From Klenkia soli (GTDB taxonomy: Bacteria; Actinomycetota; Actinomycetes; Mycobacteriales; Geodermatophilaceae), in assembly GCF_900103975.1 (NCBI RefSeq), contig NZ_FNIR01000003.1, positions 124,001-188,000 of the forward strand: a DNA stretch of 64,000 nucleotides, written 5' to 3'. Below the pieces are notes generated by a model. It had not been told where the DNA came from, did no database searches, and saw nothing but the letters and a program-made list of their open reading frames with translations. This document shows positions 11,186 through 32,366 of the stretch, piece by piece (the stretch's first letter is position 1; every line of letters starts with the position of its first letter). Made by a program: the position numbers and the translations under genes.

Positions 11186-11203
11186 GTACCGCGCCCGCAG
11201 TAG
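11186..11203. promoter_or_regulatory. 18-bp dyad operator, site E
   Basis: GTACCGCGCCCGCAGTAG, read on the other strand as CTACTGC-GGGC-GCGGTAC, matches the dyad CTAC-W-GC, N4, GC-R-GTAG found at four other sites (24713, 24752, 27475, 32349). It sits 98 bases upstream of the DUF3500 copy 1 start. The only deviation in the outer arms is the last base. It is probably bound by one of the NarL-type response regulators encoded at 26.7 and 36.2 kb. Confidence 0.6.
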
Positions 11204-11300
11204 ACCGCGGAGACGCCACTGGAGGGCCACGAGCCCGGCGGCCTCACGTGGGTGGATCCACGAGCCGGCACGACCGGATGCGTTGCCCTGCAACAGCGGG

Positions 11301-12353
11301 TCAACTGGTGGGGCTGTCGCCCGACCACGCCGCGCCGATCAGCCTTCGGACCCCCTCACGGGTCACCGGGCGGGGGTTGGCGTAAGGATTTCCGACGACG
11401 AGGTCGGCGATCCGGTCGATGTCGGCCTCGATCATCCCGAGGTCAGCGAGCGAGCGCGGTGCGCCGAGGTCGCCGGCCAGGTCCCACAGGGCGCGGGCTG
11501 GGGCGGGTCCCAGGCCGAGTGCGGTGACCGCGTCGGGGGCAGCGGGGGTGTTGTACGCGAGGGCGTGCGGGAGCACGACGGTGTGCGTGGGCGCGTGCGG
11601 CAGGTCGAGGGTGCCGCCGAGGGCGTGGCAGAGCTTGTGGTGCAGCGACATCGTGGTGGCACCCAGGACCGCCCCGCACAGCCAGGCGCCGTACTGCGCG
11701 TCGCCGCGGGCGTCGAGGTCGACCGGGTCGGCCACGATCCGGGGGAGGGCACCGAGCAGTGCACGGGCTCCCTCGGCGGCCATCAGCGACACGACCGGGG
11801 TGGCGTCGGGGGCGTACAGGCCCTCGACGGCGTGGGCGACCGCGTTGAACCCGGACGTCACGGTCATCGGCACCGGCAGGGTCAGGGTCAGCTCGGGGTC
11901 GTACACGACCGACACCGGCAGCACGCGGGGGTCGCGGCCGGTCTTCTTCACGCCGTCGGCGGTCAGCCCCCAGACCGGGGTCATCTCCGAGCCTGCGTAG
12001 GTGGTGGGCACCGCGATAACCGGCAGGCCGTGCTCGAGCGCGATGGCCTTGCCCAGCCCCACGGCCGACCCGCCGCCGACCGCGACGCAGCCGTCGGCCC
12101 CCAGCTCGGCGGCCAGGGCCTGCGCCCGGTGGGCCACCTCGACGGGGACGTGCATCCGGGCCTCGGCCAGCACCCCGGCGGACCGGTCACCCAACGCCGC
12201 GGCGACCTGGTGCCCGGTGGCCTCCTGCTCGGGGGAGCACAGCACCAGCACCCTGGTCAGCCCGAGGGCGGCGACCTCCTCGGGCAGCCGGGCCAGCGAC
12301 CCGGGGCCGAACACGACCCGCATGGGCAGGGCGGCGTAGGTGAAGGCCCTCAT
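11301..12353 (-). CDS. Maleylacetate reductase
   Basis: A 350-residue iron-type alcohol dehydrogenase family protein of the maleylacetate reductase branch. Visible motifs are VVFGPGSL near the N-terminus, the nucleotide-binding GGGSAVGLGKAIAL, PTTYAGSEMTPVWG, and the HHKLCHALGG and PHAPTHTVVLPH histidines. It reduces maleylacetate with NAD(P)H to 3-oxoadipate, the step after hydroxyquinol ring cleavage. Its ATG overlaps the dioxygenase stop by four bases, so the two are translationally coupled. Together with the HpaB-type hydroxylase at 0.2 kb it completes a hydroxyquinol route. Confidence 0.92.
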   Translation of the reverse strand: MRAFTYAALPMRVVFGPGSLARLPEEVAALGLTRVLVLCSPEQEATGHQVAAALGDRSAGVLAEARMHVPVEVAHRAQALAAELGADGCVAVGGGSAVGLGKAIALEHGLPVIAVPTTYAGSEMTPVWGLTADGVKKTGRDPRVLPVSVVYDPELTLTLPVPMTVTSGFNAVAHAVEGLYAPDATPVVSLMAAEGARALLGALPRIVADPVDLDARGDAQYGAWLCGAVLGATTMSLHHKLCHALGGTLDLPHAPTHTVVLPHALAYNTPAAPDAVTALGLGPAPARALWDLAGDLGAPRSLADLGMIEADIDRIADLVVGNPYANPRPVTREGVRRLIGAAWSGDSPTS

Positions 12354-13216
12354 GCCGGCAGCAGCGAGAGGTCGAAGGCGAGGGTGCGGAAAGGGTTGGC
12401 CAACCCGACCTCGGCCGCCCGGGCCGCGTCGTCGACCTCGGGGGTGTCGCGCACCAGGGAGTCCTTGACCCCGAAGACGGCGTCGGAGTCCAGGTAGGGG
12501 GAGTCGGCGACGAAGACGTGCGTGGTGACGGTGCGGTAGCCGTCGGCGGCGGCGATGAAGTGCAGGTGGGCGGGCCGGTTGGGGTGACGGCCGGTGGCGG
12601 CCAGCAGCTTCCCGACCGGGCCGTCGTCCGGGATCGGGTAGTAGCGGGGGACCACCGACCGGAACCAGAACCGGCCGTCGGCGTCGGTGGTGAAGATCCC
12701 GCGCAGGTTGCCCTGCGGCTGCAGGTCGGGCTGCTGGACGTCGTAGAAGCCGTCCTCGTTGGTCTGCCAGACGTCGACCGTCGCCCCGGCCAGGGGTGCG
12801 CCGTCGGGGCCGGTGACCTGGCCCGACACCAGGCAGGGGGTGCCCTTGCCGTCCAGGGCGATGTCGTCCCCGAGCTGCCGGACCGGGGAGGCGACCATGT
12901 GGAAGGGGCCCAGCACGGTGGACTCGGTCGCGGTGCCGCCGGTGCGGTGGTTGATGGTCTCGACCAGCATCGAGACGCCCAGGACGTCGGAGAGCAGGAT
13001 GAACTCCTGCCGGGTCGGAGTGCAGGTCTGGCCGGTGTCAGTGAGGAACCCGATCGCGGTCTCCCACTCGGCCTCGGTGAGCTCGACGTCCTTGACGAAG
13101 TCGTGCAGGTGCCTCACCAACGAGGTGAGCACCTGCCGCAACCGCGGGTCAGAGGTTCCGGCGAAGCTCTCGGCGACGACCTCGGCCGAGTACTCCTCGG
13201 AGAACAGCTGGGACAT
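12350..13216 (-). CDS. Hydroxyquinol 1,2-dioxygenase (intradiol ring cleavage)
   Basis: A 288-residue intradiol dioxygenase. It has the N-terminal helical dimerisation segment (FAGTSDPRLRQVLTSLVRHL) and the beta-sandwich catalytic domain with the four Fe(III) ligands: Tyr in DGFYDVQ, Tyr in PRYYPIPDDGP, and two His in RPAHLHF. The hydroxyquinol branch is favoured over catechol by the coupled maleylacetate reductase. Start ATG 13216 was chosen because it follows an AGGAGG-like site (reverse of cctcctcgg); a longer frame to 13312 adds only low-complexity sequence. The product is maleylacetate. Confidence 0.92.
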   Translation of the reverse strand: MSQLFSEEYSAEVVAESFAGTSDPRLRQVLTSLVRHLHDFVKDVELTEAEWETAIGFLTDTGQTCTPTRQEFILLSDVLGVSMLVETINHRTGGTATESTVLGPFHMVASPVRQLGDDIALDGKGTPCLVSGQVTGPDGAPLAGATVDVWQTNEDGFYDVQQPDLQPQGNLRGIFTTDADGRFWFRSVVPRYYPIPDDGPVGKLLAATGRHPNRPAHLHFIAAADGYRTVTTHVFVADSPYLDSDAVFGVKDSLVRDTPEVDDAARAAEVGLANPFRTLAFDLSLLPA

Positions 13217-13253
13217 GGGGCCTCCTCGGCCTCGTGGGGTCAGGGGGTCAGAG

Positions 13254-14333
13254 TCAGCTGCGGGGCAGCTCGACGCACGCGCCGCCCGCCTGCTCGGAGC
13301 GGTAACAGGCATCGATGAGGCGAGCCACGGCCAGTGCCTCGGACACCGGTGAGACCGGCGCCGAGCCGGCTCGGATGGCCTCGACGAAGCCCTGCATCTC
13401 GGGTCGGAAGTTCGAGATGTTCTCCAGCTCGGGCAGTTCGGAGAACTTGTTGGCCTCGGTCCGCGCGAACGGCGGGGTGAAGTGGCTCTCGGTCCACTCG
13501 GTCCAGCCGTGCCGGTAGCCGGGACGCGGCTCGTCGACGTAGACGCGCAACCGCTGCGGGAGGATGCCGATCTCGAGCATGCCGTTGGTGCCGTAGACCG
13601 AGATGCGGGAGCTCTCGAACCACTCCAGGTGGTCGTGGGTGTCGAAGCTGAACGTCATCGAGACGTCGGGGTAGTTGAGCAGCACCGCCGCGGAGTCCTC
13701 GCGGCTCGTGGCGTCGGACAGCTTGCTCGACTTGCGGACCCGGGCGTTGACGCTCTCCGGCGCACCGAACATGGACACCAGTGCGTCGAGCACGTGGCAG
13801 CCGATGATCCAGAGGGCACCACCCATGTCGGCCGGCTGGTTCAGGTGAGCGGTGAGGTGCTCACCGACGAGGGCAGCGCCGCGAGCGGAGACGGACACGA
13901 CCTCGCCGATCACCCCGGCCTCGATCAGCTGTCGAGCCTCGATCACCGTCCCCGCGAGCTGCACGTTGTAGCCGACCTGCACGACCCGGTCGCTGGCTGC
14001 GCTCAACCGGGCCAGCTTCTCCAGGTCGGCCAGCCGGCCACCCCCGGGCTTCTCCACCAGCACCGCCTTGCCGGCAGCCAGAGCTCGCTCGGCGTGCGGA
14101 ACCATGTCGACGCTCTTGGAGTGGACCAGCACCGCGTCGATCCCGTCGTCGCCGAGCAGGTCCTCGATCGTGGTCGGGGCCAGGTCGTACTTGTCGGTGA
14201 AGTAGGTGAGCCGGTCGTCGGTGTCGGCCGCGCAGCGGACCTCCACCCCGTCGATCTCGCGCAGGGCACGGACCCGGGAGGACGCGTGCGGGTGGGTGAT
14301 GCCGAGCAGACCGACCACAACGGCGTTGGACAT
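13254..14333 (-). CDS. Gfo/Idh/MocA-family oxidoreductase
   Basis: A 359-residue NAD(P)-dependent dehydrogenase of the glucose-fructose oxidoreductase/inositol dehydrogenase family. The N-terminal Rossmann domain (VVVGLLGITHPHASSRVRAL) carries the characteristic VEKPGGG in place of the usual EKP motif. The C-terminal domain shows GGALWIIGCHVLDALVSMFG with the catalytic-region His. The start follows AAAGAGGT. It is divergent from the xylose-type ABC importer and shares its operator-rich promoter, so it probably acts on the imported sugar or polyol. Confidence 0.88.
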   Translation of the reverse strand: MSNAVVVGLLGITHPHASSRVRALREIDGVEVRCAADTDDRLTYFTDKYDLAPTTIEDLLGDDGIDAVLVHSKSVDMVPHAERALAAGKAVLVEKPGGGRLADLEKLARLSAASDRVVQVGYNVQLAGTVIEARQLIEAGVIGEVVSVSARGAALVGEHLTAHLNQPADMGGALWIIGCHVLDALVSMFGAPESVNARVRKSSKLSDATSREDSAAVLLNYPDVSMTFSFDTHDHLEWFESSRISVYGTNGMLEIGILPQRLRVYVDEPRPGYRHGWTEWTESHFTPPFARTEANKFSELPELENISNFRPEMQGFVEAIRAGSAPVSPVSEALAVARLIDACYRSEQAGGACVELPRS

Positions 14334-14462
14334 CGCGAAACCTCTTTTCTCGGGCGGTCGGGCAAGCCGTGCGCACCGGCACGGATCCCGGGTCGGGATC
14401 CCGCCCCGGCTGACTGATGCCGCCGAGTCGGGACGGACCGTACGACGCGATCTCGAGTTTTG

Positions 14463-14565
14463 GCAAACGTTTGCTGTCGGCCGTCGTCGAGCGTCGAGAA
14501 AAGCTGTGCGCGGTCCTTGACAGCGGTGGCAAACGATTGTGAGCATGCCCACTGCAAACCTTTGC
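14463..14565. promoter_or_regulatory. Three LacI-type operators in the divergent promoter
   Basis: Three 12-base sites of one pattern lie here: a perfect palindrome GCAAACGTTTGC at 14463-14474, GCAAACGATTGT at 14529-14540 and GCAAACCTTTGC at 14554-14565. This is the classic LacI/GalR half-site arrangement. They lie between the Gfo/Idh/MocA gene and the ABC importer. The LacI protein encoded at 20473-21516 at the end of the same cluster is the obvious candidate regulator. Confidence 0.8.
14517..14545 (+). promoter_or_regulatory. Promoter of the xylose-type ABC operon
   Basis: A consensus -35 TTGACA at 14517-14522 is followed after 17 bases by a weak -10 (TGAGCA at 14540-14545). The second operator lies exactly between the two boxes and the third just downstream, the arrangement expected for repression. 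The distance to the TTG start at 14647 allows a leader of about 95 bases. Confidence 0.5.
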
Positions 14566-14646
14566 CAGGCCCGCCCGGGATGACCGGGGGGCCGTCCAGC
14601 CCACCCTGCCGGCGCCAGCCGCGGAGCACGGACATAGGAGTCCACG

Positions 14647-15747
14647 TTGACGATCGCGAAGAAGAGCTCGGTGGTCCTGGTGGCCGCGGCCCTCACCCTC
14701 ACCGGCTGCGGGAGCAGTGGGGGGAGCGGTGAGGGGGGCGATGGGTCAGCCTCCGGGCCGGTGTTCCTGCTGCTGCCGAACACCCAGACGACCCGCTTCG
14801 AGGAGCGGGATGCCCCGCTGTTCCAGCAGTTCATGGAGCAGTACTCGCCCGGCACCGAGGTGATCGTGCGCAATGCCGAAGGCGACCCGGACAAGCAGCA
14901 GGACCAGGTCAACGACGCCATCACCCAGGGCGCCTCGGCGATCGTGCTCGTGTCGGCCGACGCGAACCTCGCCTCCGGTTCGCTCGCGCTGGCGGAGCAG
15001 GCCCAGGTCCCGGTGGTCCTCTACGACCACGACGCGAAGGACGGCACCGCGGCCGCACAGGTCGTCTTCGACTCACGGGAGGTCGGCAAGGAGCAGGGGG
15101 ACCGCGCCGCCGAGCTGATCTCCGCCATGCCCGACGGTGTCGTCAAGGTGGCCAGGATCAAGGGCAACCCCGGTGAGTACGGCACCGAGCAGTACCAGCT
15201 CGGCCAGGACGAAGCCCTGCAGCCGCTGATCGACAGCGGCCGGGTCGAGGTGGTCTGCGACCAGAACATCACCAACTGGGACCCGGTCGAGGGGCAGTCG
15301 TTCATGGAGGACTGCCTGACCTCCAACGACAACGACATCGACCTGGTCGTCAGCATGAACGACGGTCTGGCCGGTGCGGCCATCGCGGCCCTCACCACGC
15401 AGAACCTGCAGGGCGTGGTCCCGGTGACCGGCGGCCAGGACGCCAACGTCGAAGCGCTGCAGTACATCATCCAGGGCTACCAGGACAACACGGTCTTCAA
15501 GGACCTCAGCCAGGAGGCCGACGCCGCTGCCCAGATCGTGGCAGCCCTGGTCGCCGGCGACGAGGTCCCGGCCGACCTCATCAACGGCACCGTCGACAAC
15601 GGAGCCATGGAGGTCCCCGCCGCCTTCCTGTCGGTGGAGAACGTGACGATCGACAACATCCAGGACGTCGTGGACGCCGACACCTGGACCTGGGACGAGA
15701 TCTGCCAGGGCATCGAGTCGACCGACCTCTGCGCGGCCAACCTCTGA
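14647..15747 (+). CDS. XylF-like ABC sugar-binding lipoprotein
   Basis: A 366-residue substrate-binding lipoprotein with signal and lipobox LTLTGC and a Gly/Ser linker. The type I periplasmic-binding fold resembles D-xylose/ribose binders: FLLLPNTQTTRFEERD, NAEGDPDKQQDQV, ASAIVLVSAD, PVVLYDHDAK, then TGGQDANVEALQYIIQGYQ. The start is a TTG at 14647 with an AGGAG site nine bases before it. It heads an operon with a single-domain ATPase and one permease. The ligand is probably a pentose or polyol; xylose itself is not proven. Confidence 0.88.
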   Translation: MTIAKKSSVVLVAAALTLTGCGSSGGSGEGGDGSASGPVFLLLPNTQTTRFEERDAPLFQQFMEQYSPGTEVIVRNAEGDPDKQQDQVNDAITQGASAIVLVSADANLASGSLALAEQAQVPVVLYDHDAKDGTAAAQVVFDSREVGKEQGDRAAELISAMPDGVVKVARIKGNPGEYGTEQYQLGQDEALQPLIDSGRVEVVCDQNITNWDPVEGQSFMEDCLTSNDNDIDLVVSMNDGLAGAAIAALTTQNLQGVVPVTGGQDANVEALQYIIQGYQDNTVFKDLSQEADAAAQIVAALVAGDEVPADLINGTVDNGAMEVPAAFLSVENVTIDNIQDVVDADTWTWDEICQGIESTDLCAANL

Positions 15748-22575: not shown

Positions 22576-22868
22576 GACGACGCCTGGCCCGTGGTGGGGT
22601 CGGTCCGCGCCCACCGGTGGCAGGCGTCGAGGAGCTCGTCGAGGGTGTGGAACAGCGCCATGGCGACGTCGGGGTTGCGGTGGAGGGCCGGCCCGAGCGC
22701 TCCGGCCAGCAGGCGCCAGCCCCAGTCGCCGAGCACCGATCCGTGGGTGGGCACGGTGGTCCCGCCCGTGGTGGATGTGCGGGCACCGCGGGGGGGAACC
22801 GTGCCCCGTGCGTCGGTGCGTACGACCGGGCCCGCCGACGGCCTCGGTCCTGCCAGCATGCCGGTCAT
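22572..22868 (-). CDS. Uncharacterised 98-residue protein in the reductase operon
   Basis: A small protein with a Thr/Gly/Pro-rich first half and a helical second half (GDWGWRLLAGALGPALHRNP, then ALFHTLDELLDACHRWAR). I recognise no family. Its ATG overlaps the reductase stop (TGATG) and its stop overlaps the stress protein start (ATGA), which strongly supports it as a real, translationally coupled gene. Confidence 0.65.
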   Translation of the reverse strand: MTGMLAGPRPSAGPVVRTDARGTVPPRGARTSTTGGTTVPTHGSVLGDWGWRLLAGALGPALHRNPDVAMALFHTLDELLDACHRWARTDPTTGQASS

Positions 22869-24223
22869 CAGGCGAACCGTTCCTCGTGGAGCTGCCCGAG
22901 CGGCAGGCCGGCGTCCCGCAGGCAGGCACGGACGGCAGCGGTGAAGCTCGGCGAGCCGCACATGTACACGTCACGGTGGGCGAGGTCGGGCACGGCGTGC
23001 AGCAGCGCGCGGGGATCGCTGAGCCACGGGTCGCCGGTGAGGACGTAGCCAAGCCGCACCCCTCGGCGGGCGGCGATGGCCTGGAGCTCCTCGGCGAAGA
23101 GCACCCCGGCCATGTCGCGGGCCCGGTACAGCAGCAGCAGGTCCTCACCCGGGGCGACGGGCAGCGACTCGAACAGGGCCCGCATCGGGGTGATGCCGAC
23201 ACCGCCGGCGATCAGCAGCACGTTGCGGTGCGTTCGGCGTGCGGCGGTGACCGCACCGTAGGGCCCCTCTGCCGCGATGCGGGTCCCGACCGGCAGGTGC
23301 TGCAGCTGGTGGGTGCCGTCGCCGAGTGCCTTGACCGTGAGCCGCAGGGAGGTGGCGGTGGGCGGTGCGGACAGCGAGAACGGGTGCGCGTTGCGCCAGT
23401 GGTCGCGGGTGAGGAACCGCCAGCGGAAGAACTGCCCGGACTCGGCCGCCAGTTCGTGCAGGTGCCGGCCGGTGACGTGGATGCTGACCACCCCCGGGCC
23501 CTCGGGGCGTACCTCGGCCACGCGCAGGCGGTGCCGGGTGGCCTGCTGGATCGGGGAGATGACCCGGTAGCGCAGCACGAGGGCGAAGACGTGCGTGTAG
23601 GCCAACGCCCAGCCGACCTGCAGCACCGGGTAGCCGGCCAGGTCGGGCCCGGCGAGCATGTGCCCGAAGGACAGCGCCACGGCCACGTACATCAGCAGGT
23701 GCAGGGCGTGCCAGGTCTCGTGGCGGATCCGTCGCCGCGCAGCGCGTGCCGACGCGACGCCCGCGACGACCATCAGGACGGTGCCCACCGTGGCCGCGGG
23801 CAGCCACGGCATGGCCAGGACCGTCCCCACGGCCGAGAGTGGTCCGCTCCCGGTGGCCTGGGCCCACGCGGCGGTGGCGGCGACCCCGTGCACGCCGACG
23901 AGGACGATGACGACACGCCCGAGGACGGCGTGCCACCGGGCCAGCACGTCGGCGCCGACCCCCAGCTCCAGGGCGGGGGTGCGGGCCATCAGCAGCAACA
24001 GGACCAGGACCCCGAACCCGGCGAGCATCCCGCTGACGTGGGCGACGAGCCCCAGCCCGGACACCTCGGGGCCCAGGGTGGCCAGGGCGACGGGCCAGGT
24101 GGCGACCGTCAGCGCGCCGGTGCCCGCGATGGTGAGCGCAGTGGCGCGGTCGACCACCGTTCGCCGACGCTGCGGTGCAGTCCCCGGCTGGCGGGCCGTC
24201 CCCGGCGCCAGGCCGGTTGTCAT
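22868..24223 (-). CDS. Heme-FAD transmembrane oxidoreductase, ferric reductase-like (copy A)
   Basis: A 451-residue protein with about six N-terminal helices of the ferric reductase-like type and a C-terminal ferredoxin-NADP reductase-like module. Two histidines on each of two helices (RWHAVLGRVVIVLVGVHG; WHALHLLMYVAVALSFGH) fit two b-hemes across the membrane. FAD motif NAHPFSLSAPP, NAD(P) motif GGVGITPMRAL and a terminal YMCGSPSF are present. Electrons from cytoplasmic NAD(P)H would cross to an external acceptor such as Fe(III), quinone or a flavoprotein. The ATG start at 24223 overlaps the preceding small gene. It is paralogous to the gene at 28144. Confidence 0.85.
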   Translation of the reverse strand: MTTGLAPGTARQPGTAPQRRRTVVDRATALTIAGTGALTVATWPVALATLGPEVSGLGLVAHVSGMLAGFGVLVLLLLMARTPALELGVGADVLARWHAVLGRVVIVLVGVHGVAATAAWAQATGSGPLSAVGTVLAMPWLPAATVGTVLMVVAGVASARAARRRIRHETWHALHLLMYVAVALSFGHMLAGPDLAGYPVLQVGWALAYTHVFALVLRYRVISPIQQATRHRLRVAEVRPEGPGVVSIHVTGRHLHELAAESGQFFRWRFLTRDHWRNAHPFSLSAPPTATSLRLTVKALGDGTHQLQHLPVGTRIAAEGPYGAVTAARRTHRNVLLIAGGVGITPMRALFESLPVAPGEDLLLLYRARDMAGVLFAEELQAIAARRGVRLGYVLTGDPWLSDPRALLHAVPDLAHRDVYMCGSPSFTAAVRACLRDAGLPLGQLHEERFA

Positions 24224-24495
24224 CGACGACCACCCCCGCGGCCACCCTGGCCAGCGCCACCCTGCGGTCCGGCCCCGCGTGGGGCATCGCCGCCGGTGGC
24301 TCGCTGGTCGGGTGCCTGGCCCGCCTGGCCCGCCTGGCCCGCCTGGTCCGCCTGATCGGTCTGGACGGCCGGAGCGGCGACGGGGGAGACGTCGGGTGCG
24401 CCGATGCCGAACCACAGACCCAGCGCCGTAGCGGAGGTCAGCAGCACCCCGGTGACCCAGGTCAGCGGCCGGGCAACCGCGTGATGGGCGGTCAT
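24220..24495 (-). CDS. Small membrane-anchored Gln/Gly-rich protein
   Basis: A 91-residue protein with one N-terminal transmembrane segment (VTGVLLTSATALGLWFGIGA) followed by an extracytoplasmic low-complexity tail containing a QAG triplet repeat and a Gly-rich end. Both ends overlap neighbouring genes by four bases. It may be an anchor or accessory to the reductase; no family is recognised. It parallels the single-helix protein that precedes the second reductase operon (27580). Confidence 0.6.
   Translation of the reverse strand: MTAHHAVARPLTWVTGVLLTSATALGLWFGIGAPDVSPVAAPAVQTDQADQAGQAGQAGQAPDQRATGGDAPRGAGPQGGAGQGGRGGGRR
24315..24359. repeat. 9-base tandem repeat encoding the QAG run
   Basis: Five consecutive 9-base units (three exact CCTGGCCCG, then CCTGGTCCG and a diverged CCTGATCGG) lie inside the small membrane protein gene. 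Unit gain or loss keeps the frame, so the extracytoplasmic tail length may vary between strains. Confidence 0.8.
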
Positions 24496-24653
24496 GCCGA
24501 CGCCCGCTCCGGCCCGGGGGCCTCGGCCCGGCGACCGTGGCGGGGCGCGCGCAGCTGCACCAGGAGGTGCCCGGCCAGCCCGGCTAGCCACGCCGAGGAC
24601 GTCGGGAGGGCGGGCGCCAGTGGGGCACGCCGTCCGGCGGCGGTCGAGTTCAT
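24492..24653 (-). CDS. Putative 53-residue leader/membrane micro-protein
   Basis: The frame from ATG 24653 gives 53 residues with a short hydrophobic stretch (SSAWLAGLAGHLLVQLRAP) and a basic C-terminus. Its stop overlaps the next ATG by four bases, continuing the chain of coupled starts in this operon. That overlap is the main support; there is no recognised family. It would be the first gene after the two dyad operators. Confidence 0.45.
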   Translation of the reverse strand: MNSTAAGRRAPLAPALPTSSAWLAGLAGHLLVQLRAPRHGRRAEAPGPERASA

Positions 24654-24712
24654 GACGACGACGGTGCCCGGTGGCGGGTCCTCGCGCGTCGTCCAGCGGC
24701 AGGCTCGTCGAC

Positions 24713-24730
24713 CTGCTGCCGACGCGGTAG
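24713..24730. promoter_or_regulatory. 18-bp dyad operator, site B
   Basis: CTGCTGC-CGAC-GCGGTAG, one of five copies of the dyad CTAC-W-GC, N4, GC-R-GTAG. It is 39 bases from site A (start to start) and lies in the divergent gap between the reductase A operon and DedA-kinase-regulator genes. Confidence 0.65.
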
Positions 24731-24751: not shown

Positions 24752-24769
24752 CTACTGCCGCCGCGGTAG
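24752..24769. promoter_or_regulatory. 18-bp dyad operator, site A
   Basis: CTACTGC-CGCC-GCGGTAG, the best match to the shared dyad, with both outer tetramers intact. Sites A and B could control both the leftward reductase A operon (first start 24653) and the rightward DedA-kinase-regulator operon (start 24857). Confidence 0.7.
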
Positions 24770-24856
24770 GCGGTGTGCCTGCGGTGGGACGACGACAAGG
24801 ACTGCGGATCCGAGCAGGCTCATCGGCATGACCTGGACCCCGGCAGGAGACCACCG

Positions 24857-25471
24857 ATGAGCGCGCTGAGCACCGTCGCCGAAGCCGCGACCGCGCTCGT
24901 GGACGCTGCGGGTGACGCCGGGCTGGCCGCCGTGATGGCTGTGGAGGCGGTGCTCCCCATCCCCTCGGAGGTCGTGCTGCCCCTGGTCGGCAGCCAGGTG
25001 GCGGCGGGGCAGCTGTCCTACCCGGGCGCCGTGCTCGCCGCCACGCTGGGCTCGACGCTGGGGGCCTGGGCAATGTTCCTGGCCGGCCGGGCAGGGGGCC
25101 GCACCCGGGTGCAGCAGCTGTCACGGCTGATCGGCCTGGACGCCCGGCGCTGGGACCACCTGGAGTCCTGGTTCGACCGGCGGGGCGCCTGGGTGGTCCT
25201 GCTCGGCCGACTGGTGCCCGGGGTGCGGGTGCTGGTCAACCTGCCCGCGGGGTCGCTGGGCATGCCGACGGCGCGGTTCCTGGCGCTGACCGCTGCCGGG
25301 TCGGCGGTGTGGAACGCGGCCTGGATCGGTGCTGGGTCGACCCTCGTCACGTACTGGGACGCCGTGCTGTCCGCCGTCGCCGATGCCCGCCCGGGGACAC
25401 TGCTGGCCGCGGCGGTCGGGCTGGTCGTCGTGCTGGCCCGGCAGACCCGGGCCCGCGCGGTGTTCGGGTGA
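24857..25471 (+). CDS. DedA-family membrane protein
   Basis: A 204-residue DedA/SNARE-associated-type membrane protein. It shows the family signature EAVLPIPSEVVLPLVGSQVA near the start, GSTLGAWAMFLAGRAGGR, and LGRLVPGVRVLVNLPAGSLGM, with a final hydrophobic helix. Family members are lipid transporters or support membrane homeostasis. The ATG at 24857 follows AGGAGA. Its stop overlaps the kinase GTG, forming a DedA-kinase-regulator operon. Confidence 0.88.
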   Translation: MSALSTVAEAATALVDAAGDAGLAAVMAVEAVLPIPSEVVLPLVGSQVAAGQLSYPGAVLAATLGSTLGAWAMFLAGRAGGRTRVQQLSRLIGLDARRWDHLESWFDRRGAWVVLLGRLVPGVRVLVNLPAGSLGMPTARFLALTAAGSAVWNAAWIGAGSTLVTYWDAVLSAVADARPGTLLAAAVGLVVVLARQTRARAVFG

Positions 25472-26721
25472 GCTCGGCCGCTGCGGTACAACGGTCCACC
25501 ATGTGGCCCCTGCTGACCCGGGCGAACCGTTGGGCGGCCGCGCACCCCCGCGTCGCCGACGCCGTCCTGGCCGCGTTGGCGTTGGCCGTGGCCCTGGGCG
25601 GGTTGTCCGACGGGCGGGACCGGGGCCGTGGCGGGGGAGGCCTGGACGGCCTGGACGCCGCTGGGGGAGCAGTGAGTTCCTTCTCCTCCGGGGCAGTGGC
25701 GCTGCTGGTGCTCGCCTCGGCGGTGCTGCTGGCCCGCCGCACCCACCCGGTCCCGGTGGCCGTGGTGTCGGCCGGTGCGGTGGTGGGGGCGGTGCTGATG
25801 GGCGGCGCCGACCCGCTGGTGTCCGCGCCGCTGCTGGTCGCGCTGTTCACCCTGGGCTGGTTGGCCACGCTGCGCACGACCGTGCTCACCGTCGTCGTCG
25901 CCGGCATCGGGTACGTCCTGGCCCTGGCCGCCGCGCAGGGGGTGTTCCTGGACGAGCGCGGGGACTCCCCGGCGTTGACGGTGCTCGCCCTGGGTGGGGC
26001 GGCCGCGGCCGCCGGGGTGGCGCTGCGCGGGCAGCGGTCGGCCCTGGCGGCGGCGCGGGCCCGGGCCGCGCAGGCCGAGAGCACCCGTGAGGAGGAGGCC
26101 CAGCGCCGGGTGACCGACGAGCGGCTGCGGATCGCCCGTGAGCTGCACGACGTCGTCGCCCACCACATCGCGGTGGTGAACGTGCAGGCCGGCGTCGCCA
26201 AGCACCTCATGCACCGCGACCCGCAGCAGGCCGAGCACGCCCTGACCCTGGTCCGAGAAGCGAGCAAGAGCGTGCTGACCGAGCTGACCGCCGTCGTCGG
26301 ACTGCTGCGCACGGATGGCGGCGACGGACCCGCAGCCCCCGCGCCCGGGCTCGCCCGCCTCCCGGCCCTGGTCGAGGACATCCGTTCGGCCGGGCTCGCC
26401 CTGGACCAGCGGACCACTGGCGAGGCGGTCGACCTGCCCCCCGTCGCGGACCTGACTGCCTACCGCGTCGTGCAGGAGGCCCTGACCAACGCGGTGAAGT
26501 ACGGCGACGGCCACGCCACCCTGGTCGTCGACCACGGGACGGGGGAGGTCACCATCGACGTCGTGAACACCTTCTCCCCCCGCCCTTCCCCGGGGACCGG
26601 CGGGCACGGCCTGATCGGCATGCGCGAGCGGGTCGACGCCGTCGGCGGCCGGTTGGACGCCGGCCCTGACGGCTCCGGTGGCTGGCGGGTGCGGGCGACG
26701 ATCCCGCGGGGCACGGTGTGA
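25468..26721 (+). CDS. NarL-type sensor histidine kinase (copy A)
   Basis: A 417-residue membrane kinase with about four to five hydrophobic helices, a coiled linker (AAARARAAQAESTREEEAQ), and a HisKA_3 dimerisation domain with the phospho-acceptor His at about residue 227 (RIARELHDVVAHH). The ATPase domain has VVQEALTNAVKYG and GGHGLIGMRERV. The start is either GTG 25468, overlapping the DedA stop, or ATG 25501; the overlap favours the former. It pairs with the response regulator gene immediately downstream and is paralogous to the kinase at 35094. Confidence 0.88.
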   Translation: MSSAAAVQRSTMWPLLTRANRWAAAHPRVADAVLAALALAVALGGLSDGRDRGRGGGGLDGLDAAGGAVSSFSSGAVALLVLASAVLLARRTHPVPVAVVSAGAVVGAVLMGGADPLVSAPLLVALFTLGWLATLRTTVLTVVVAGIGYVLALAAAQGVFLDERGDSPALTVLALGGAAAAAGVALRGQRSALAAARARAAQAESTREEEAQRRVTDERLRIARELHDVVAHHIAVVNVQAGVAKHLMHRDPQQAEHALTLVREASKSVLTELTAVVGLLRTDGGDGPAAPAPGLARLPALVEDIRSAGLALDQRTTGEAVDLPPVADLTAYRVVQEALTNAVKYGDGHATLVVDHGTGEVTIDVVNTFSPRPSPGTGGHGLIGMRERVDAVGGRLDAGPDGSGGWRVRATIPRGTV

Positions 26722-27407
26722 CCATCCGGGTGCTGCTGGCCGACGACCAGGTGCTCATCCGGTCCGGGTTCGCCGCGCTCATCGGCAGCGCCGAGGACCT
26801 CGTGGTGGTCGGGGAGGCCGGGGACGGCGCCACCGCGGTCGACCTGGCCCGGTCGCTGCGACCCGACGTCGTGCTCATGGACGTCCGGATGCCCGGCACC
26901 GACGGGCTGTCGGCCACCCGCCAGATCACCGCCGATCCCGACCTGGGTGACGTCCGCGTGGTCGTGCTGACCACCTTCGAAGCCGATGAGATCGTGCTGG
27001 ACGCCCTGCGCGCCGGCGCCAGCGGGTTCCTGGGCAAGAGCGTGGAACCCGAGGAGCTGCTCGAGGCGGTCCGGGTGGTAGCCGGCGGGGACGCGCTGTT
27101 GTCGCCGCGCGCCACCCGCAGCCTCATCGCCCGGTTCCTCGCCGCCCCCGAGGACGCGGCACCCCGGGCGGGTGCGGTGCCGGTGTCGCTGGCGGGGCTG
27201 ACCGACCGTGAGCGGGAGATGGTCGCCCAGGCCGCGCTCGGCCTCAGCAACGACGAGATCGCCGCCCAGCAGTTCCTGTCACCGCTGACGGTCAAGACCC
27301 ACCTGAACCGGGCGATGAGCAAGCTCGACGCAAGGGACCGCGCCCAGCTGGTGGTCCTGGCCTACCAGAGCGGCCTCGTGCGCGTCGGGGACACCGGAGC
27401 CCCCTGA
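26718..27407 (+). CDS. NarL/LuxR-type response regulator (copy A)
   Basis: A 229-residue regulator. The receiver domain has LLADDQVLIRSGF, phospho-acceptor Asp in VVLMDVRMPG, the Thr in VVLTTFE and the Lys in GFLGKSVEP. The C-terminal LuxR HTH reads LTDREREMVAQAALGLSNDE and SPLTVKTHLNRAMSKL. Its GTG overlaps the kinase stop. It and copy B are the natural candidates to bind the 18-bp dyads around these operons. Confidence 0.92.
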   Translation: MTIRVLLADDQVLIRSGFAALIGSAEDLVVVGEAGDGATAVDLARSLRPDVVLMDVRMPGTDGLSATRQITADPDLGDVRVVVLTTFEADEIVLDALRAGASGFLGKSVEPEELLEAVRVVAGGDALLSPRATRSLIARFLAAPEDAAPRAGAVPVSLAGLTDREREMVAQAALGLSNDEIAAQQFLSPLTVKTHLNRAMSKLDARDRAQLVVLAYQSGLVRVGDTGAP

Positions 27408-27474: not shown

Positions 27475-27492
27475 CTACTGCGACGGCAGCAG
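27475..27492. promoter_or_regulatory. 18-bp dyad operator, site C
   Basis: CTACTGC-GACG-GCAGCAG, matching the shared dyad with one change in the right outer arm. It lies 88 bases before the start of the second reductase operon. The 172-base gap between 27407 and 27580 holds no gene. Confidence 0.65.
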
Positions 27493-27579
27493 GTCAGGAG
27501 CCTGCACCGGGACGACGACGGCGGGCGGTCGGACGGCGAGGCTTGAGCCGTACCCGCCCCCGGATCCCAGGAGAACTGC

Positions 27580-28099: not shown

Positions 28100-28147
28100 A
28101 TGCACCCGTCAGGCGCTCACCCCCGCACCGGCGGGGGCGCCCGGTGA
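28100..28147 (+). CDS. Putative 15-codon leader peptide
   Basis: ATG 28100 with an AGCAGGAG site eight bases upstream encodes MHPSGAHPRTGGGAR and stops at 28147, overlapping the GTG of the reductase gene (GTGA). It may provide translational coupling or act as a regulatory leader for the reductase, which otherwise has no obvious ribosome binding site of its own. It is too short for family assignment. Confidence 0.45.
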   Translation: MHPSGAHPRTGGGAR

Positions 28148-29553
28148 CCGCCGTCGCGGCCCGCCCGGCGGCGGTCCCCACCGCACCGGGGACCGTCCCG
28201 GGGGGCCGGGCCCGCCGCGACGCCGCGGTCCGCCTGGGCTCGCTGGTCGTGCTGTGGTCCGGGCTGCTGCTGGTCAGCTACTGGTGGGCCACCGGCGGCG
28301 GGTTCCAGGCGCTGGGCTCCTGGGCCGGCGGGCTGACCTCGACCGGCCGGCTGACCGGTCTGCTGGCCTCGGACCTGCTGCTCGTGCAGCTGCTGCTCAT
28401 GGCCCGGGTCCCGGTGCTCGAACGCGCCTTCGGGCAGGACCGGCTCGCCGCGCTGCACCGGCTGGTGGGGTTCAGCTCCTTCACCCTGATGGTCGCCCAC
28501 ATCGGCCTGATCACCTGGGGCTACGCCGCCGGCGAGCTCAGCGCCGCACCGGGGGAGCTGTGGGACCTCACCGTCACCTACCCCGGCATGCTTCTGGCCG
28601 CCGCCGGCACGCTGTGCCTGGTCATGGTGGTGGTGACCAGCGTGCGGGCGGCCCGGCGCCGGTTGCGCTACGAGTCCTGGCACCTGCTGCACCTCTACGC
28701 CTACCTGGGCGTCGGACTGGCCCTGCCGCACCAGCTGTGGACCGGGCAGGACTTCCTCGCCTCCCCGGCCCGCACCGTCTTCTGGTGGACCTCCTGGGCC
28801 GCGGCCGCCGGCGCGGTGCTCGTCTGGCGGGTGGCCCTGCCGCTGGTCCGCAGCACCCGCTCGGCGCTGCGGGTCACCTCCGTCGTCGCCGAGGGCGACG
28901 GCGTGGTGTCGGTGACCATGGCCGCCCGCCGCGGGCGGTGGGTGGACGCCGAGGCCGGCCAGTTCTTCTCCTTCCGGTTCCTGGCCGGGGCCGGCTGGAC
29001 CCGGGCGCACCCCTACTCGCTGTCCGCGGCGCCCGACGGCCGCGGTCTGCGGATCACCGTCGCCGAGGTCGGCGACGGCAGCTCCGCCCTGCGCCACCTG
29101 CGGCCGGGCACCCGGGTCCTGGTCGAGGGCCCCTACGGCCGGCTCTCCGAGCGGGCCCGGACCCGCCGCCGGGTCGCCCTCATCGGTGCCGGTGTCGGTA
29201 TCACCCCGCTGCGTGCCCTGGCCGAGGGCATGGCCTACGCCCCCGGCGAGGTCGCCGTCCTGCACCGCTACCGGGACCGCCCGCTGTTCCAGCGCGAGTT
29301 CGAGCAGCTCTCCCGCGACCGCGGCCTGCAGCTGTTCTGGCTGCCGGGCCACCGCCGGGCCCAGGGGTCCTGGCTGGGCCACGGGGTCGGCGACGCCGAC
29401 GACCTCACCGCGCTGACCTGGTGGGTGCCCGACATCGCCGACCGCGACGTCTACGTCTGCGGTCCCCGCCCCTGGGCCGAGGACGTCGTCCGCACCGCCA
29501 CGGCGGCCGGCGTCCCGGCCGACCACATCCACGTCGAGAGCTTCGGTTGGTGA
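28144..29553 (+). CDS. Heme-FAD transmembrane oxidoreductase, ferric reductase-like (copy B)
   Basis: A 469-residue paralogue of the gene at 22868. Six or so helices carry histidine pairs suited to two b-hemes (LHRLVGFSSFTLMVAHIG; WHLLHLYAYLGVGLALPH). The C-terminal reductase module has AHPYSLSAAP for FAD, GAGVGITPLRAL for NAD(P) and YVCGPRPWAEDV. It would pass electrons from NAD(P)H across the membrane. Here the next genes encode an exported FMN-binding protein and ApbE, suggesting the FMN protein is the external electron acceptor. The GTG start overlaps the 15-codon leader. Confidence 0.88.
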   Translation: MTAVAARPAAVPTAPGTVPGGRARRDAAVRLGSLVVLWSGLLLVSYWWATGGGFQALGSWAGGLTSTGRLTGLLASDLLLVQLLLMARVPVLERAFGQDRLAALHRLVGFSSFTLMVAHIGLITWGYAAGELSAAPGELWDLTVTYPGMLLAAAGTLCLVMVVVTSVRAARRRLRYESWHLLHLYAYLGVGLALPHQLWTGQDFLASPARTVFWWTSWAAAAGAVLVWRVALPLVRSTRSALRVTSVVAEGDGVVSVTMAARRGRWVDAEAGQFFSFRFLAGAGWTRAHPYSLSAAPDGRGLRITVAEVGDGSSALRHLRPGTRVLVEGPYGRLSERARTRRRVALIGAGVGITPLRALAEGMAYAPGEVAVLHRYRDRPLFQREFEQLSRDRGLQLFWLPGHRRAQGSWLGHGVGDADDLTALTWWVPDIADRDVYVCGPRPWAEDVVRTATAAGVPADHIHVESFGW

Positions 29554-29557
29554 CCCC

Positions 29558-30070
29558 GTGAAGAAGATCGTCCTGTGGTGCATGAGCACCCTGACGGTGC
29601 TGGTGCTGCTCTTCGGCTACCACACCTCCACCTCCTCCCAGGCAGCCGCGACCGCGGAATCCTCCACGGTCACCCCGGTGGCCGGCTCGCTGGCCGCCAC
29701 TCCCTCCACGTCGGCCTCGGCAACTGCACCGGCGGCGGCGACCCCGTCGGCAGCCGCCTCTGCGACAGCCGCGCCGGAGTCGACGACGGCCACCACGACC
29801 ACCGTGACCGGCAGCGCCGCCGACACCCGCTACGGCCCGGTCCAGGTCCAGCTGACCGTCTCCGGCGGCACCATCACCGACGTCAGCGTCATCGACTACC
29901 CCAGCAGCAACGGCAAGGACCAGCAGATCAACGGCCGGGCCCTGCCGGTGCTGGTTCAGGAGACCCTGGACGCGCAGAGCGCCGACATCGACATGGTCAG
30001 CGGCGCCACCTACACCAGCGACGGCTACCTGCAGTCCCTGCAGAGCGCCCTGGACCAGGCCGGCCTGTGA
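29558..30070 (+). CDS. Exported FMN-binding-domain protein (ApbE substrate)
   Basis: A 170-residue protein with an N-terminal signal or anchor helix (VLWCMSTLTVLVLLFGY), a long Ser/Thr/Ala linker (residues 30-88) and a C-terminal FMN_bind domain. The flavinylation motif D-M-V-S-G-A-T ends at Thr151, the residue to which ApbE attaches FMN by a phosphoester bond. It sits between the transmembrane reductase and apbE, overlapping the latter by four bases. It probably serves as an extracytoplasmic one- or two-electron carrier. Confidence 0.88.
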   Translation: MKKIVLWCMSTLTVLVLLFGYHTSTSSQAAATAESSTVTPVAGSLAATPSTSASATAPAAATPSAAASATAAPESTTATTTTVTGSAADTRYGPVQVQLTVSGGTITDVSVIDYPSSNGKDQQINGRALPVLVQETLDAQSADIDMVSGATYTSDGYLQSLQSALDQAGL

Positions 30071-30852
30071 ACCGGACCGCGGCCGAGGCCCCAACCCGCT
30101 ACGTCGAGCACGTCATGGGGATGCCGATCAGCCTGGCCCTGCGCGGCCGGCACACCACCGACCGCGCCGCCCGCGACGCCTGGGCCGAGGTGATGACCGA
30201 GCTGCGCGACGTCGACCGGGTCTTCAGCACCTACCGGGCCGACTCCGTGATCAGCCGGCTCGGGCGCGGCGAGGTCACCGTAGAGGACTGCGTGCCCGAG
30301 GTCGCCGAGGTCCTGGCGCTGGCCGCCGCCGCCGAGCACGACTCGGGTGGCGCGTTCAGCGCCTGGCTGCCCGGCCCGGACGGCGTCCGCTGGCTGGACC
30401 CCAGCGGCGTGGTCAAGGGCTGGGCCACCGAACGCGCCGCGGCCTGGTTGGCCCAGCTGCCCGACACCGACTTCTGCCTGTCCGCCGGCGGCGACCTGAC
30501 CTGCCGCACCCTGGACCCCGACGGCCCGCCCTGGCGGATCGGCATCGAGCACCCGACCGACCCCGGACGGGTGCTGGCCGTCCTCCCGGTCGCCACCGGT
30601 GCCGTCGCCACCTCCGGCACCGCCCACCGCGGCGCCCACCTGGTCGACGCCCGCACCGGACTGGCCCCGACCGGCGTCGCCCAGGTGACCGTCTGGGGCG
30701 ACTCGCTCACCGCCGCCGACATCGACGCCACAGCAGCCTTCGCTCTCGGCTCGGGAGCAGCCGTCTGGCTGGCCACCCGGCCGGGCCGCTCATCGTTCGT
30801 CGTCTGGGCGGACGGGTCGACCACCACCGTGGACGGCAGCGCAACGATCTGA
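30067..30852 (+). CDS. apbE: FAD:protein FMN transferase
   Basis: A 261-residue ApbE-family protein without a clear signal peptide. It shows MGMPISLAL, VFSTYRADSVISRLGRG, a conserved GVVKGWATERAA, SAGGDLTCR and the C-terminal VATSGTAHRGAHLVDARTG and ADIDATAAFALG magnesium-site segment. It transfers FMN from FAD to the Thr of its target motif, most likely Thr151 of the FMN-binding protein encoded directly upstream. Lack of an obvious signal leaves open whether modification occurs before export. Confidence 0.93.
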   Translation: MNRTAAEAPTRYVEHVMGMPISLALRGRHTTDRAARDAWAEVMTELRDVDRVFSTYRADSVISRLGRGEVTVEDCVPEVAEVLALAAAAEHDSGGAFSAWLPGPDGVRWLDPSGVVKGWATERAAAWLAQLPDTDFCLSAGGDLTCRTLDPDGPPWRIGIEHPTDPGRVLAVLPVATGAVATSGTAHRGAHLVDARTGLAPTGVAQVTVWGDSLTAADIDATAAFALGSGAAVWLATRPGRSSFVVWADGSTTTVDGSATI

Positions 30853-30913
30853 ACCCCGGCACGGCCACCGCGCCCGCACGACCACCCGGACGACAGACCC
30901 CCGGAGGAAGACG

Positions 30914-31189
30914 ATGAGCCCTGCCCACCAGCTGGCCCCTGCCCTGCGCGACGCGCTCGCCGTGCTCGCCGCCTGCGCCGACGAGCAGGACAGCTTCGCG
31001 CTGACCCGGGACACCGTCTGGTCCACCGTCCACGACAGCAGCCCCGACGACCACGTGGCGGGCGCGCTCCGCCTGGTCACGGGGCTGGTCGGGGTGAGCA
31101 CCCTGCTCCTGGACGAACTGGCCCGGTCGACCGGGCTCACCCACCAGCAGGTTCTCCACCAGCTGGGCACGTCGGTGGCCCAGGCGTGA
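30914..31189 (+). CDS. Uncharacterised 91-residue helical protein
   Basis: A small all-helical protein (ALRDALAVLAACADEQDSF; HVAGALRLVTGLVGVSTLLL; TGLTHQQVLHQLG) with no membrane segment or known domain. It starts after a CCGGAGGAAG site, 61 bases after apbE, and its stop overlaps the next gene by four bases. It is probably a soluble accessory of the operon. Confidence 0.65.
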   Translation: MSPAHQLAPALRDALAVLAACADEQDSFALTRDTVWSTVHDSSPDDHVAGALRLVTGLVGVSTLLLDELARSTGLTHQQVLHQLGTSVAQA

Positions 31190-31680
31190 ATGGGACCCGG
31201 ACCGGACCGGCCCACGCCCCCGTCAGCCGGCCCCAGCTCACCGGCACCCGGCGTCCAGGACGTACCACGCTGACGTGGGGGGTGGTGACCACCCTGCTGG
31301 CCGTTGCACTGATCACCCTGGTTCCATCCGGTTCCGGGTGGACCTGGGCGGATCCCGCGACGGAGCTGGGCTGGTACCTGGCGGGCCTGGACGACGACAC
31401 GACCCGTCTCCAGCTGGTGGGCAACCTGCTGCTGCTGGTCCCGACCGCGGCGCTGGCCGCCGCCCGGTGGCCGGTGCTGCGCCGTCCCGCCGCACTGCTG
31501 CCGGCCTGTCTGGTCCTGGCGTCAGGGATCGAGACCCTGCAGTTCCTGCTGCCCCTGGGACGGGTCGTGTCCGTCGTCGACGTCGGGCTCAACACCCTCG
31601 GCGCAGTGCCCGTGCTGGTCGCAGCGGCCCTGCTGCGACCGCCGACCCGGCCTTCTCCGGGTCGGGGTGATCAGGCGTAG
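31186..31680 (+). CDS. VanZ-like membrane protein
   Basis: A 164-residue membrane protein of the VanZ-like family. It has four helices and the typical sequence LQLVGNLLLLVPTAALAA, then SGIETLQFLLPLGRVVSVVDVGLNTLGA, matching the N-x-L-L-F-x-P and E-x-x-Q and D-x-x-x-N-x-x-G features. The GTG overlaps the preceding stop. Family function is ill-defined beyond teicoplanin resistance in enterococci. The gene ends 10 bases inside the convergent gene. Confidence 0.82.
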   Translation: MNGTRTGPAHAPVSRPQLTGTRRPGRTTLTWGVVTTLLAVALITLVPSGSGWTWADPATELGWYLAGLDDDTTRLQLVGNLLLLVPTAALAAARWPVLRRPAALLPACLVLASGIETLQFLLPLGRVVSVVDVGLNTLGAVPVLVAAALLRPPTRPSPGRGDQA

Positions 31681-32231
31681 CCGTCGACCAGGGCACCCTT
31701 CTGCTGGTTCGACGACAGCTGGGCCGCGACCTTCGGGTTGCTGTCGAGCAGGTCCTGGATGCCGGTGCCGTCGGTCAACCGGGCCATCAGGTCCTCGGTG
31801 CTCACCCCCAGGGCGCTGGAGAGGGCCTGGATCCCGCTCTGCGCGTCGACGGCCGGCTTGTGGTGGCCGCGGCCGGCGGCACCGGGACCACCCATCGCGC
31901 CGCTGGCGATGTCGGAGGCCATGCTCTGCGGCGCGTCGGCGGGCAGCGTGGCCTGGATGGTGGCCACCAGATCGTCGTTGCTGACCCCGGCGGCCTGGGC
32001 CAGCTCGGCCATCGTCTTCCCGCTGCTCAGCTGGGCCTTGAGCGTGTCGGCGTCGATGCCCAGCAGGTCGGCGACCGCCGCGTTGGTCTTCTCCGGCCCA
32101 CCGCCCGGCGGCGGTCCGGACGGGCGCTGGGTGGCGGAGGTGGCCCAGGTCGATGCCGAGGACGAGAGGGCGCTGATGCTGCTCACGGACGATGCCTCCG
32201 AGGAGTCGAGTGGTGCGGTCGCGCCGTTCAT
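31671..32231 (-). CDS. Uncharacterised protein with repeated LG-x-x-x-x-x-L modules
   Basis: A 186-residue soluble protein. A Ser-rich N-terminus is followed by small helical modules seen in several actinobacterial and firmicute proteins: LLGIDADTLKAQLSSGKTMA with ELAQAAGVSNDDLVATIQ, and ALGVSTEDLMARLTDGTG. A His-containing linker (GRGHHKPAVD) joins them. No enzyme motif is seen. It is divergent from the second DUF3500 gene and shares its upstream region with dyad site D. Confidence 0.65.
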   Translation of the reverse strand: MNGATAPLDSSEASSVSSISALSSSASTWATSATQRPSGPPPGGGPEKTNAAVADLLGIDADTLKAQLSSGKTMAELAQAAGVSNDDLVATIQATLPADAPQSMASDIASGAMGGPGAAGRGHHKPAVDAQSGIQALSSALGVSTEDLMARLTDGTGIQDLLDSNPKVAAQLSSNQQKGALVDGYA

Positions 32232-32348
32232 CGGCACGCCCGGACCGGTGCTCCACGGCTGGCCCCGCACTCACAGCCCGGTGACAGCAACCCACAGCTG
32301 ACCGACAGTGCGGCGTCGGGAGCCAGGAACCCGCCGCGGCCGGCACGA

Positions 32349-32366
32349 CTACAGCGAACGCAGTAG
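32349..32366. promoter_or_regulatory. 18-bp dyad operator, site D
   Basis: CTACAGC-GAAC-GCAGTAG, a perfect inverted repeat of 7-base arms and one of five copies of the shared dyad. It lies 37 bases before the DUF3500 copy 2 start and 118 bases before the divergent gene start. Confidence 0.75.

Follow-up and report, generated by a model that had tools for sequence, protein, structure and literature searches.

The 64,000-nucleotide window analysed here (Klenkia soli, contig NZ_FNIR01000003.1, positions 124,001 to 188,000) contains an 18-bp dyad, CTACWGC-N4-GCRGTAG, which is very probably the operator of a group of two-component systems that would activate a local regulon for membrane redox and, putatively, metal handling; these systems have NarL-type response regulators in which NR[AV]M follows the recognition helix. 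Five copies of the dyad precede five operons. They encode a DedA-family protein with a histidine kinase and a response regulator (DedA-HK1-RR1), a first heme reductase (reductase-1), a second heme reductase with FMN-binding and ApbE proteins (reductase-2; FMN, flavin mononucleotide), and two DUF3500-HupE pairs, the second followed by another kinase and regulator (DUF3500_1-HupE1 and DUF3500_2-HupE2-HK2-RR2). That these operons form a single regulon had been proposed in an earlier note on this DNA, and, at the level of sequence evidence, a real regulon is well supported by the sites, the anatomy of the promoters, and the association between regulator and site; the positions and the orthologous loci agree with it, but the dyad is not a DUF3500 signal as such.

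All five 18-mers are present where they had been reported, each upstream of a gene. The consensus form itself is exact only at 24752 and 32349 (100 shuffles of the window give a mean of 0.00 exact matches), whereas 24713, 27475, and 11186 have one mismatch, the last of these being read on the minus strand, which is that of its gene. The whole host genome (4.76 Mb, also termed G000, with contigs labelled C) was then scanned. With up to one mismatch, the dyad occurs at 7 distinct places, 5 of which are within the 21-kb stretch of the window; the others are C20:13706 and C8:58196, and the latter was dropped as a site since it is located inside a 258-aa open reading frame (ORF). A reversed control pattern matches the genome 19 and 24 times, so the signal is one of clustering rather than abundance. 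Six of the 7 places are in front of this gene set or its copy on contig C20; in other genera, MMPL and ABC transporters are found behind the dyad (see below).

The C20 dyad has a two-mismatch partner 39 bp away, and both lie between a reductase and a divergent DedA-HK-RR operon. The C20 reductase is 87% identical to the window reductase Red1 and the C20 regulator is 89% identical to RR1; hence, C20 holds a second copy of this unit, and the genome has three systems and seven sites. The similarity between the recognition helices of RR1 and RR2 was confirmed and extended to this third regulator: SPLTVKTHxNRAM is common to all three, which are therefore of the NR[AV]M type. The next relatives of RR1 in the genome, on C15 (55%), at C20:199082 (58%), on C22 (51%), and on C17 (a gene in two pieces, 64% and 55%), carry instead SEATVKTHVGRVL, SELTVKTHVGRIL, SESTVKTHVGAVL, and AATTVKTHVARIL, and no convincing composite promoter accompanies these four, with a partial exception at C22:20313.

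The window dyads are the upstream half of composite promoters in which TACYGC-N4-GCRGTA is followed, after 17-24 nt, by a second dyad and then by a -10-like hexamer (Table 1). The second element, GGAYGACG, lies 17, 17, 18, 24, and 24 nt past the five dyads (5/5) and on no strand other than that of the gene behind it. In most promoters GCCTGC-N4 stands in front of this element, and in more distant family members GGTCC-N4, which makes the pair of halves a degenerate counterpart of the primary 7-4-7 dyad; this second dyad, GCCTGC-N4-GGACGACG, occupies the -35 region. A hexamer of the form xAnnnT (often CAGGCT or GAGGCT) is found 28 or 29 nt after the GGA in all five window promoters and in 29 of 34 composites from the host's own family and related genomes, with every other offset accounting for at most 2 of the 34. 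All 34 were chosen for containing the second element, so its presence among them is not a count; the hexamer was not used for the choice. It is present in 24 of the 25 composites for which a downstream gene was identified. In a wide set from named genomes, xAnnnT occurs 44-47 nt after the dyad, the same distance as in the composites, at 16 of 25 sites (15 of 19 loci), while other 4-nt bins hold 0-5 sites. Many pattern matches without the full dyad, obtained in scans of the family and order, were set aside as chance by eye.

GTGAAC or ATGAAC start codons lie 41-42 nt after the GGA in the DUF3500_2 orthologues (4/4) and in the small ORF that opens the reductase-1 operon (3/3, including loci L010 and L096). 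Since these starts sit 7-8 nt past the hexamer, at the expected transcription start, both mRNAs are predicted to be leaderless. With the predicted leaderless start as +1, the centre of the second dyad would be at about -43/-44 and that of the primary dyad at about -67, or about -74 to -76 for the 23-24-nt spacers. The second dyad would therefore be close to the geometry of class II activators, whose site near -41.5 overlaps the -35 region. An independent sigma-factor site at GGACGACG was not favoured, given its fixed distance to the -10 and its place as the right half of a 7-4-7 dyad.

The association between regulator and site was counted in the best 80 of 391 RR1 relatives among the 593 pattern matches listed, from named genomes (1.23 Mb). 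The exact core, TACYGC-N4-GCRGTA, occurs 12 times in these sequences, 9 of them just upstream of the kinase gene or just after the regulator gene. Among 360 permutations of the half-site, TACYGC ranks first, with 8 loci against 4 for the next best; among spacers of 0-10 nt, only N4 gives exact matches near the genes, and, when one mismatch is allowed, a spacer of 4 gives 18 loci versus 0-2 for the others. A site with up to one mismatch is beside 18 of the 24 NR[AV]M regulators versus 0 of the 56 others, although one-mismatch 18-mers at three of the latter (L139, L171, and L193) fall outside the counted intervals; the Fisher value is 3.8e-13, which overstates the independence of loci that share ancestry. 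Two of the NR[AV]M loci counted as misses, L135 and L173, have the dyad at the start of a longer operon, and counting by operon gives 20/24 versus at least 1/56. That the dyad belongs to the NR[AV]M subclade of NarL-type regulators is, on these alignments and counts, well supported. Searches of open-licence papers gave no description of an operator of this kind or of the regulation of DUF3500 genes (one may be in print elsewhere).

Related genomes keep parts of this arrangement. Another Klenkia genome, G078, has sites in front of sTM2-Red2 (sTM, a small protein with one transmembrane segment), between DedA and Red1 (where there are two), and in front of DUF3500_1-HupE1, while in G058, they precede DedA-HK-RR1 and FMN-binding/ApbE genes; at the latter locus, a 34-aa piece of Red2 is all that matches. 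All four DUF3500_2-HupE2-HK2-RR2 loci found (G000, G057, G064, and G076) carry both the dyad and the second element. The regulators retrieved from four other Klenkia genomes (G077, G080, G082, and G083) belong to the SELTVKTHVGRIL type, no regulator was retrieved from G079 at the cut-off used, and none of these five genomes has a composite match with a full dyad. In locus L099 (G092), genes for HupE1, Red1, sTM1, and an FMN-binding protein run together in the same direction, and Red2 has a partial match there, which links HupE to the reductases independently of the window; the composite site there precedes a P-type ATPase ORF. When the regions upstream of DUF3500-HupE pairs were compared, 6 of 7 pairs had the dyad. 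The dyad is not a general mark of DUF3500, since no core match with up to one mismatch was found at 25 DUF3500 loci without an adjacent HupE match (L237-L261), at 30 high-scoring DUF3500 loci (L062-L091, about 4 kb each), or on C6.

How might these promoters work? TACYGC-N4-GCRGTA would be the high-affinity operator of actinobacterial HisKA_3/NarL systems with NR[AV]M regulators, of which three in this genome (RR1, RR2, and the C20 copy of RR1) would control the five window operons. The multi-transmembrane kinase would sense an envelope signal or a metal/redox signal and phosphorylate the regulator, one dimer of which, on the primary dyad, would help a second dimer onto the degenerate dyad. 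The latter would replace a -35 element, so that the regulator would sit next to the RNA polymerase bound at a weak xAnnnT -10, in a class II-like manner, and the outcome would be positive autoregulation and co-induction of the group. The heme reductases would then carry electrons from NAD(P)H to an extracellular protein with covalently bound flavin, and a HupE permease that binds copper and a lipoprotein of the DUF3500 family would operate alongside. From the functions of these products (the reductases, the FMN-binding and ApbE proteins, HupE, and DUF3500), we infer reductive copper/iron handling as the most likely role. Metal handling had been suggested for the whole group; it is plausible for HupE and putative as a regulon-wide function.

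Several observations weigh against this interpretation, in addition to the shared ancestry of the loci. The dyad motif as such is not over-represented in the genome. Four of the 24 NR[AV]M loci (L128, L144, L162, and L198) have no site, and 5 of the 34 composites have no -10, including the G058 site in front of the FMN-binding/ApbE genes, where it is not at the usual offset. The G084 DUF3500-HupE pair is without a dyad at up to one mismatch. Conversely, a QRAM regulator in Millisia brevis (L139) has a one-mismatch 18-mer with an exact 16-mer core 3.7 kb upstream, at 203-220, in front of a gene for a 757-aa transporter-like protein that leads its kinase-regulator operon; the regulator class may therefore extend beyond NR[AV]M. 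In the host, C22:20313 (L211) is a one-mismatch core upstream of a non-NR[AV]M system, with GGACGACG 20 nt away, and no -10-like hexamer at +28/29. Finally, the regulators may act as repressors, and the MMPL and ABC targets in other genera argue for a general envelope or efflux role.

Those targets are varied. In G041, G089, G091, and G102, a composite precedes an MMPL transporter (called by Pfam for the G041 protein and by a similar N-terminus and length for the other three), and another composite follows the regulator gene. The dyad is also found before an ABC transporter in G048 and in a metagenome-assembled genome of the Propionibacteriaceae, and before an MMPL gene in Arthrobacter and Microbacterium, while at several Nocardia, Micromonospora, and Actinomadura loci, the likely target is either the operon of the kinase and regulator or a small gene that follows it. 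In Tessaracoccus (L127), where the regulator is 68% identical, the gene directly behind a one-mismatch dyad and the regulator gene encodes an ABC ATPase fused to a ferric-reductase-like/FAD/NAD module (PF01794 reaches 27.9 bits for a cut-off of 28, and the FAD and NAD matches exceed their cut-offs); a MacB-like permease comes next, followed by a copper P-type ATPase that scores over the cut-off of TIGR01511. This variety of membrane targets suggests that the ancestral role was probably related to the membrane or envelope, the Klenkia redox-metal regulon being one specialisation.

The rival with the best standing, which we rate only a little below an even chance, is that the group is an envelope-stress or efflux response resembling those of LiaSR and EsrSR, in which redox genes have been recruited against membrane damage and not for metal uptake. 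It draws on the MMPL and ABC transporters just described, on kinases (HK1 and HK2) that are multi-transmembrane with no evident extracellular domain, and on the presence of DedA and VanZ-like genes within the cluster. Against it stand the Tessaracoccus reductase and copper ATPase genes, and also the report that HupE proteins with an N-terminal histidine bind copper (PMC12537917), though it could accommodate both. It would be compatible with the regulatory part of our preferred explanation.

At the other extreme, the products could serve a bacterial form of reductive copper/iron uptake under one operator code, in which the spacing between the dyads may distinguish paralogous regulators; we regard this as doubtful. 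Here, NOX-like reductases would feed a covalently flavinylated carrier, which would supply reduced metal to the copper-binding HupE and a DUF3500 metallochaperone, a division of labour comparable to that of Fre and Ctr. As regards the spacing, the RR1 and C20 operons have 17-18 nt from the dyad to the second element and the RR2 operons have 23-24 nt; the distance at DUF3500_1 is 24 in the host, which has both regulators, and 17 in G078, where RR1 but not RR2 was found. Spacings of 21 (G058) and 28 (G048), both in genomes with RR1-type regulators, blur this rule.

A different regulator, such as a repressor or a one-component factor, might read the dyad and merely be located in the same clusters, palindromes near promoters often being the operators of repressors. 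This is improbable since the dyad follows one regulator subclade across many families (18/24 versus 0/56), adjoins kinase and regulator genes even when the other neighbours differ, and is at a distance from the -10 that fits an upstream activator. Recent duplication of whole promoter regions, with no shared regulation, is very improbable. The C20 unit does resemble a duplicate of the window unit, but the window promoters share mainly the dyad, the second element, and the -10, the DUF3500_2 orthologues keep these same three across genera, and 7-4-7 dyads recur beside NR[AV]M regulators in other families.

The proposed activation by the NR[AV]M regulators would have parallels in the DosR/DevR and VraR promoters, where a regulator of the NarL/LuxR type binds tandem sites, with the proximal one over the -35 and the stronger one upstream, and is autoregulated; the half-site TACYGC, the N4 spacer, and the targets are different here. 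The assignment of an operator and a promoter architecture to a NarL subclade should make regulons predictable in Nocardia, Actinomadura, Micromonospora, Arthrobacter, and others. It also joins MsrQ-like flavinylation reductases, HupE permeases of the copper-binding type, and the uncharacterised DUF3500 in one testable circuit.

Each of the first two components has a described counterpart. The genes at 28144-30852 encode, in one cluster, a PF01794+PF00175 protein, an FMN_bind protein, and ApbE, the combination that identifies MsrQ-like flavinylation clusters. Such clusters, with a PF01794 heme protein containing an NAD domain, an FMN-binding protein, and ApbE, are known mainly from Actinobacteria according to the MsrQ-like account of Meheust et al. 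(2021, PMC8238504, section 10), and that section, unlike the present analysis, describes neither a regulator nor an operator; the main text of the same paper does not contain HupE or DUF3500. In HupE1 and HupE2, a histidine directly follows the signal peptide and PF13795 is present, which makes them candidate members of the Ang-2 HupE/UreJ-2 proteins; the Ala-His that closes the signal peptide, a hallmark of the copper-binding anglerase-HupE proteins, is invariant in 6/6 aligned HupE proteins (cleavage was placed by eye). According to Franco Cairo et al. (2025, PMC12537917), such proteins with an N-terminal histidine bind Cu2+ (at 62.3 nM for that of Microbacterium maritypicum), Asp33 is the second ligand in MmAng-2a, and Ang-2 is restricted to Actinomycetota. 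The window proteins have the same layout of signal peptide, histidine, extracellular domain, and PF13795 permease; they differ in being paired with DUF3500, which is absent from the main text of that paper, and in being under a dyad promoter.

As for DUF3500 itself, PF12006 scores 261.4 bits in DUF3500_1 and 194.5 in DUF3500_2 (cut-off 27.2), and histidines (HH and HxH) are invariant in six aligned sequences. A solved relative of the domain is PDB 9x86, 'Amc20' (E ~1e-22), with HHL and HxHSV histidines in both; no function for it was found in the open-licence literature. The AlphaFold model of DUF3500_1 has a mean pLDDT (predicted local distance difference test) of 34.5 and was not used. The start of DUF3500_2 is probably the GTG at 32433 and not 32403, in which case the protein would carry a signal that looks by eye like that of a lipoprotein, and its transcript would be leaderless.

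Table 1. Coordinates of the dyads, promoter elements, and genes discussed (positions in the window).
Feature	Position	Strand	Remarks
Primary dyad CTACTGCGGGCGCGGTAC	11186..11203	-	Upstream of DUF3500_1-HupE1
Primary dyad CTACCGCGTCGGCAGCAG	24713..24730	-	Reductase-1 operon
Primary dyad CTACTGCCGCCGCGGTAG	24752..24769	+	DedA-HK1-RR1 operon
Primary dyad CTACTGCGACGGCAGCAG	27475..27492	+	Reductase-2 operon
Primary dyad CTACAGCGAACGCAGTAG	32349..32366	+	DUF3500_2-HupE2-HK2-RR2 operon
Second element GGACGACG (11161-11154) and -10-like CATCCT (11133-11128)	11128..11161	-	24-nt spacer from dyad
Second element GGACGACG (24694-24687) and -10-like CACCGT (24666-24661)	24661..24694	-	
Second dyad GCCTGC-N4-GGACGACG (24777-24794) and -10-like CAGGCT (24815-24820)	24777..24820	+	
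Second element GGACGACG (27510-27517) and -10-like GAGGCT (27538-27543)	27510..27543	+	
Second element GGATGACG (32391-32398) and -10-like CAGGCT (32420-32425)	32391..32425	+	
HupE1: signal peptide, N-terminal-His extracellular domain, HupE/UreJ_2 membrane domain	8517..9911	-	PF13795 5e-43
DUF3500_1, secreted lipoprotein-like	9916..11088	-	PF12006 1.6e-77; PDB relative 9x86
Red1, heme-FAD-NAD reductase (MsrQ/NOX-like), start codon uncertain	22868..24287	-	PF01794+PF08022+PF00175
sTM1, 91-aa protein with one transmembrane segment	24220..24495	-	Matches in L010, L096, L099
53-aa small ORF, predicted leaderless, first in reductase-1 operon	24492..24653	-	ATG 41 nt after GGA
DedA-family membrane protein	24857..25471	+	PF09335 7e-23
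HK1, HisKA_3 kinase, multi-transmembrane sensor region, start inferred	25468..26721	+	PF07730; hydropathy
RR1, NarL-type regulator, SPLTVKTHLNRAM	26718..27407	+	PF00072+PF00196
sTM2, low-complexity protein with one transmembrane segment	27580..28068	+	
Red2, heme-FAD-NAD reductase (MsrQ/NOX-like)	28144..29553	+	PF01794 5.5e-17, PF00175
Secreted FMN-binding-domain protein	29558..30070	+	PF04205 2.2e-11; SGATYTS motif, presumably flavinylation-like
ApbE-type FMN transferase	30067..30852	+	PF02424 1.7e-35
DUF3500_2, probable leaderless GTG start (re-assigned)	32433..33647	+	PF12006 3.9e-57; ORF list start 32403
HupE2	33649..35097	+	PF13795 4.3e-38
HK2, HisKA_3 kinase, multi-transmembrane sensor region, start uncertain	35019..36242	+	PF07730 1.1e-17
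RR2, NarL-type regulator, SPLTVKTHVNRAM	36239..36946	+	PF00072+PF00196

Two domain scores qualify the table: the PF08022 match of Red2 is at 20.2 bits, under the cut-off of 22, and the DedA protein scores below the NCBIfam cut-off for UptA. An Rfam scan of window positions 8000-37500 gave no match above gathering scores.

Several other matches to the pattern were discarded. In a relaxed scan of the window, 6725-6742 matches with two mismatches and was taken as chance. The genome has 13 core matches outside the regulon, of which 11 were looked at (leaving out C17:543107 and C25:36676); 8 of the 11 are inside predicted ORFs and 10 are without the second element, the exception being the C22 match. 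An exact core match at C12:9728 was dropped since matching inverted arms flank it, and it is probably part of a longer hairpin. The CTACAGC-N4-GCTGTAG sequences at contig ends of G076, G080, and G082 belong to a different repeat with its own flanks.

Some neighbouring genes may also be mentioned. The C20 unit (L010, G000:C20:9000-19000) has its own composite pair and is accompanied by relatives of USP and VanZ; in the window, a VanZ-like gene (31186-31680, plus strand) follows ApbE, and related genes occur close to the C20 copy and in G078. A conserved protein encoded divergently from DUF3500_2 (31671-32234, minus strand) is related to proteins of G078 (82% over 71 aa) and of G076 (77% over 156 aa) and has no match in Pfam or NCBIfam. 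The genes for an Fe-ADH and an intradiol dioxygenase at 11301-14417 (minus strand), next to a sugar-type ABC transporter, probably form a catabolic cluster that has nothing to do with the dyads. Adjoining the DUF3500_1-HupE1 operon, an ApeA-like protein (ApeA_NTD1 and HEPN_Apea; 6828-8294, plus strand) is a candidate anti-phage gene product.

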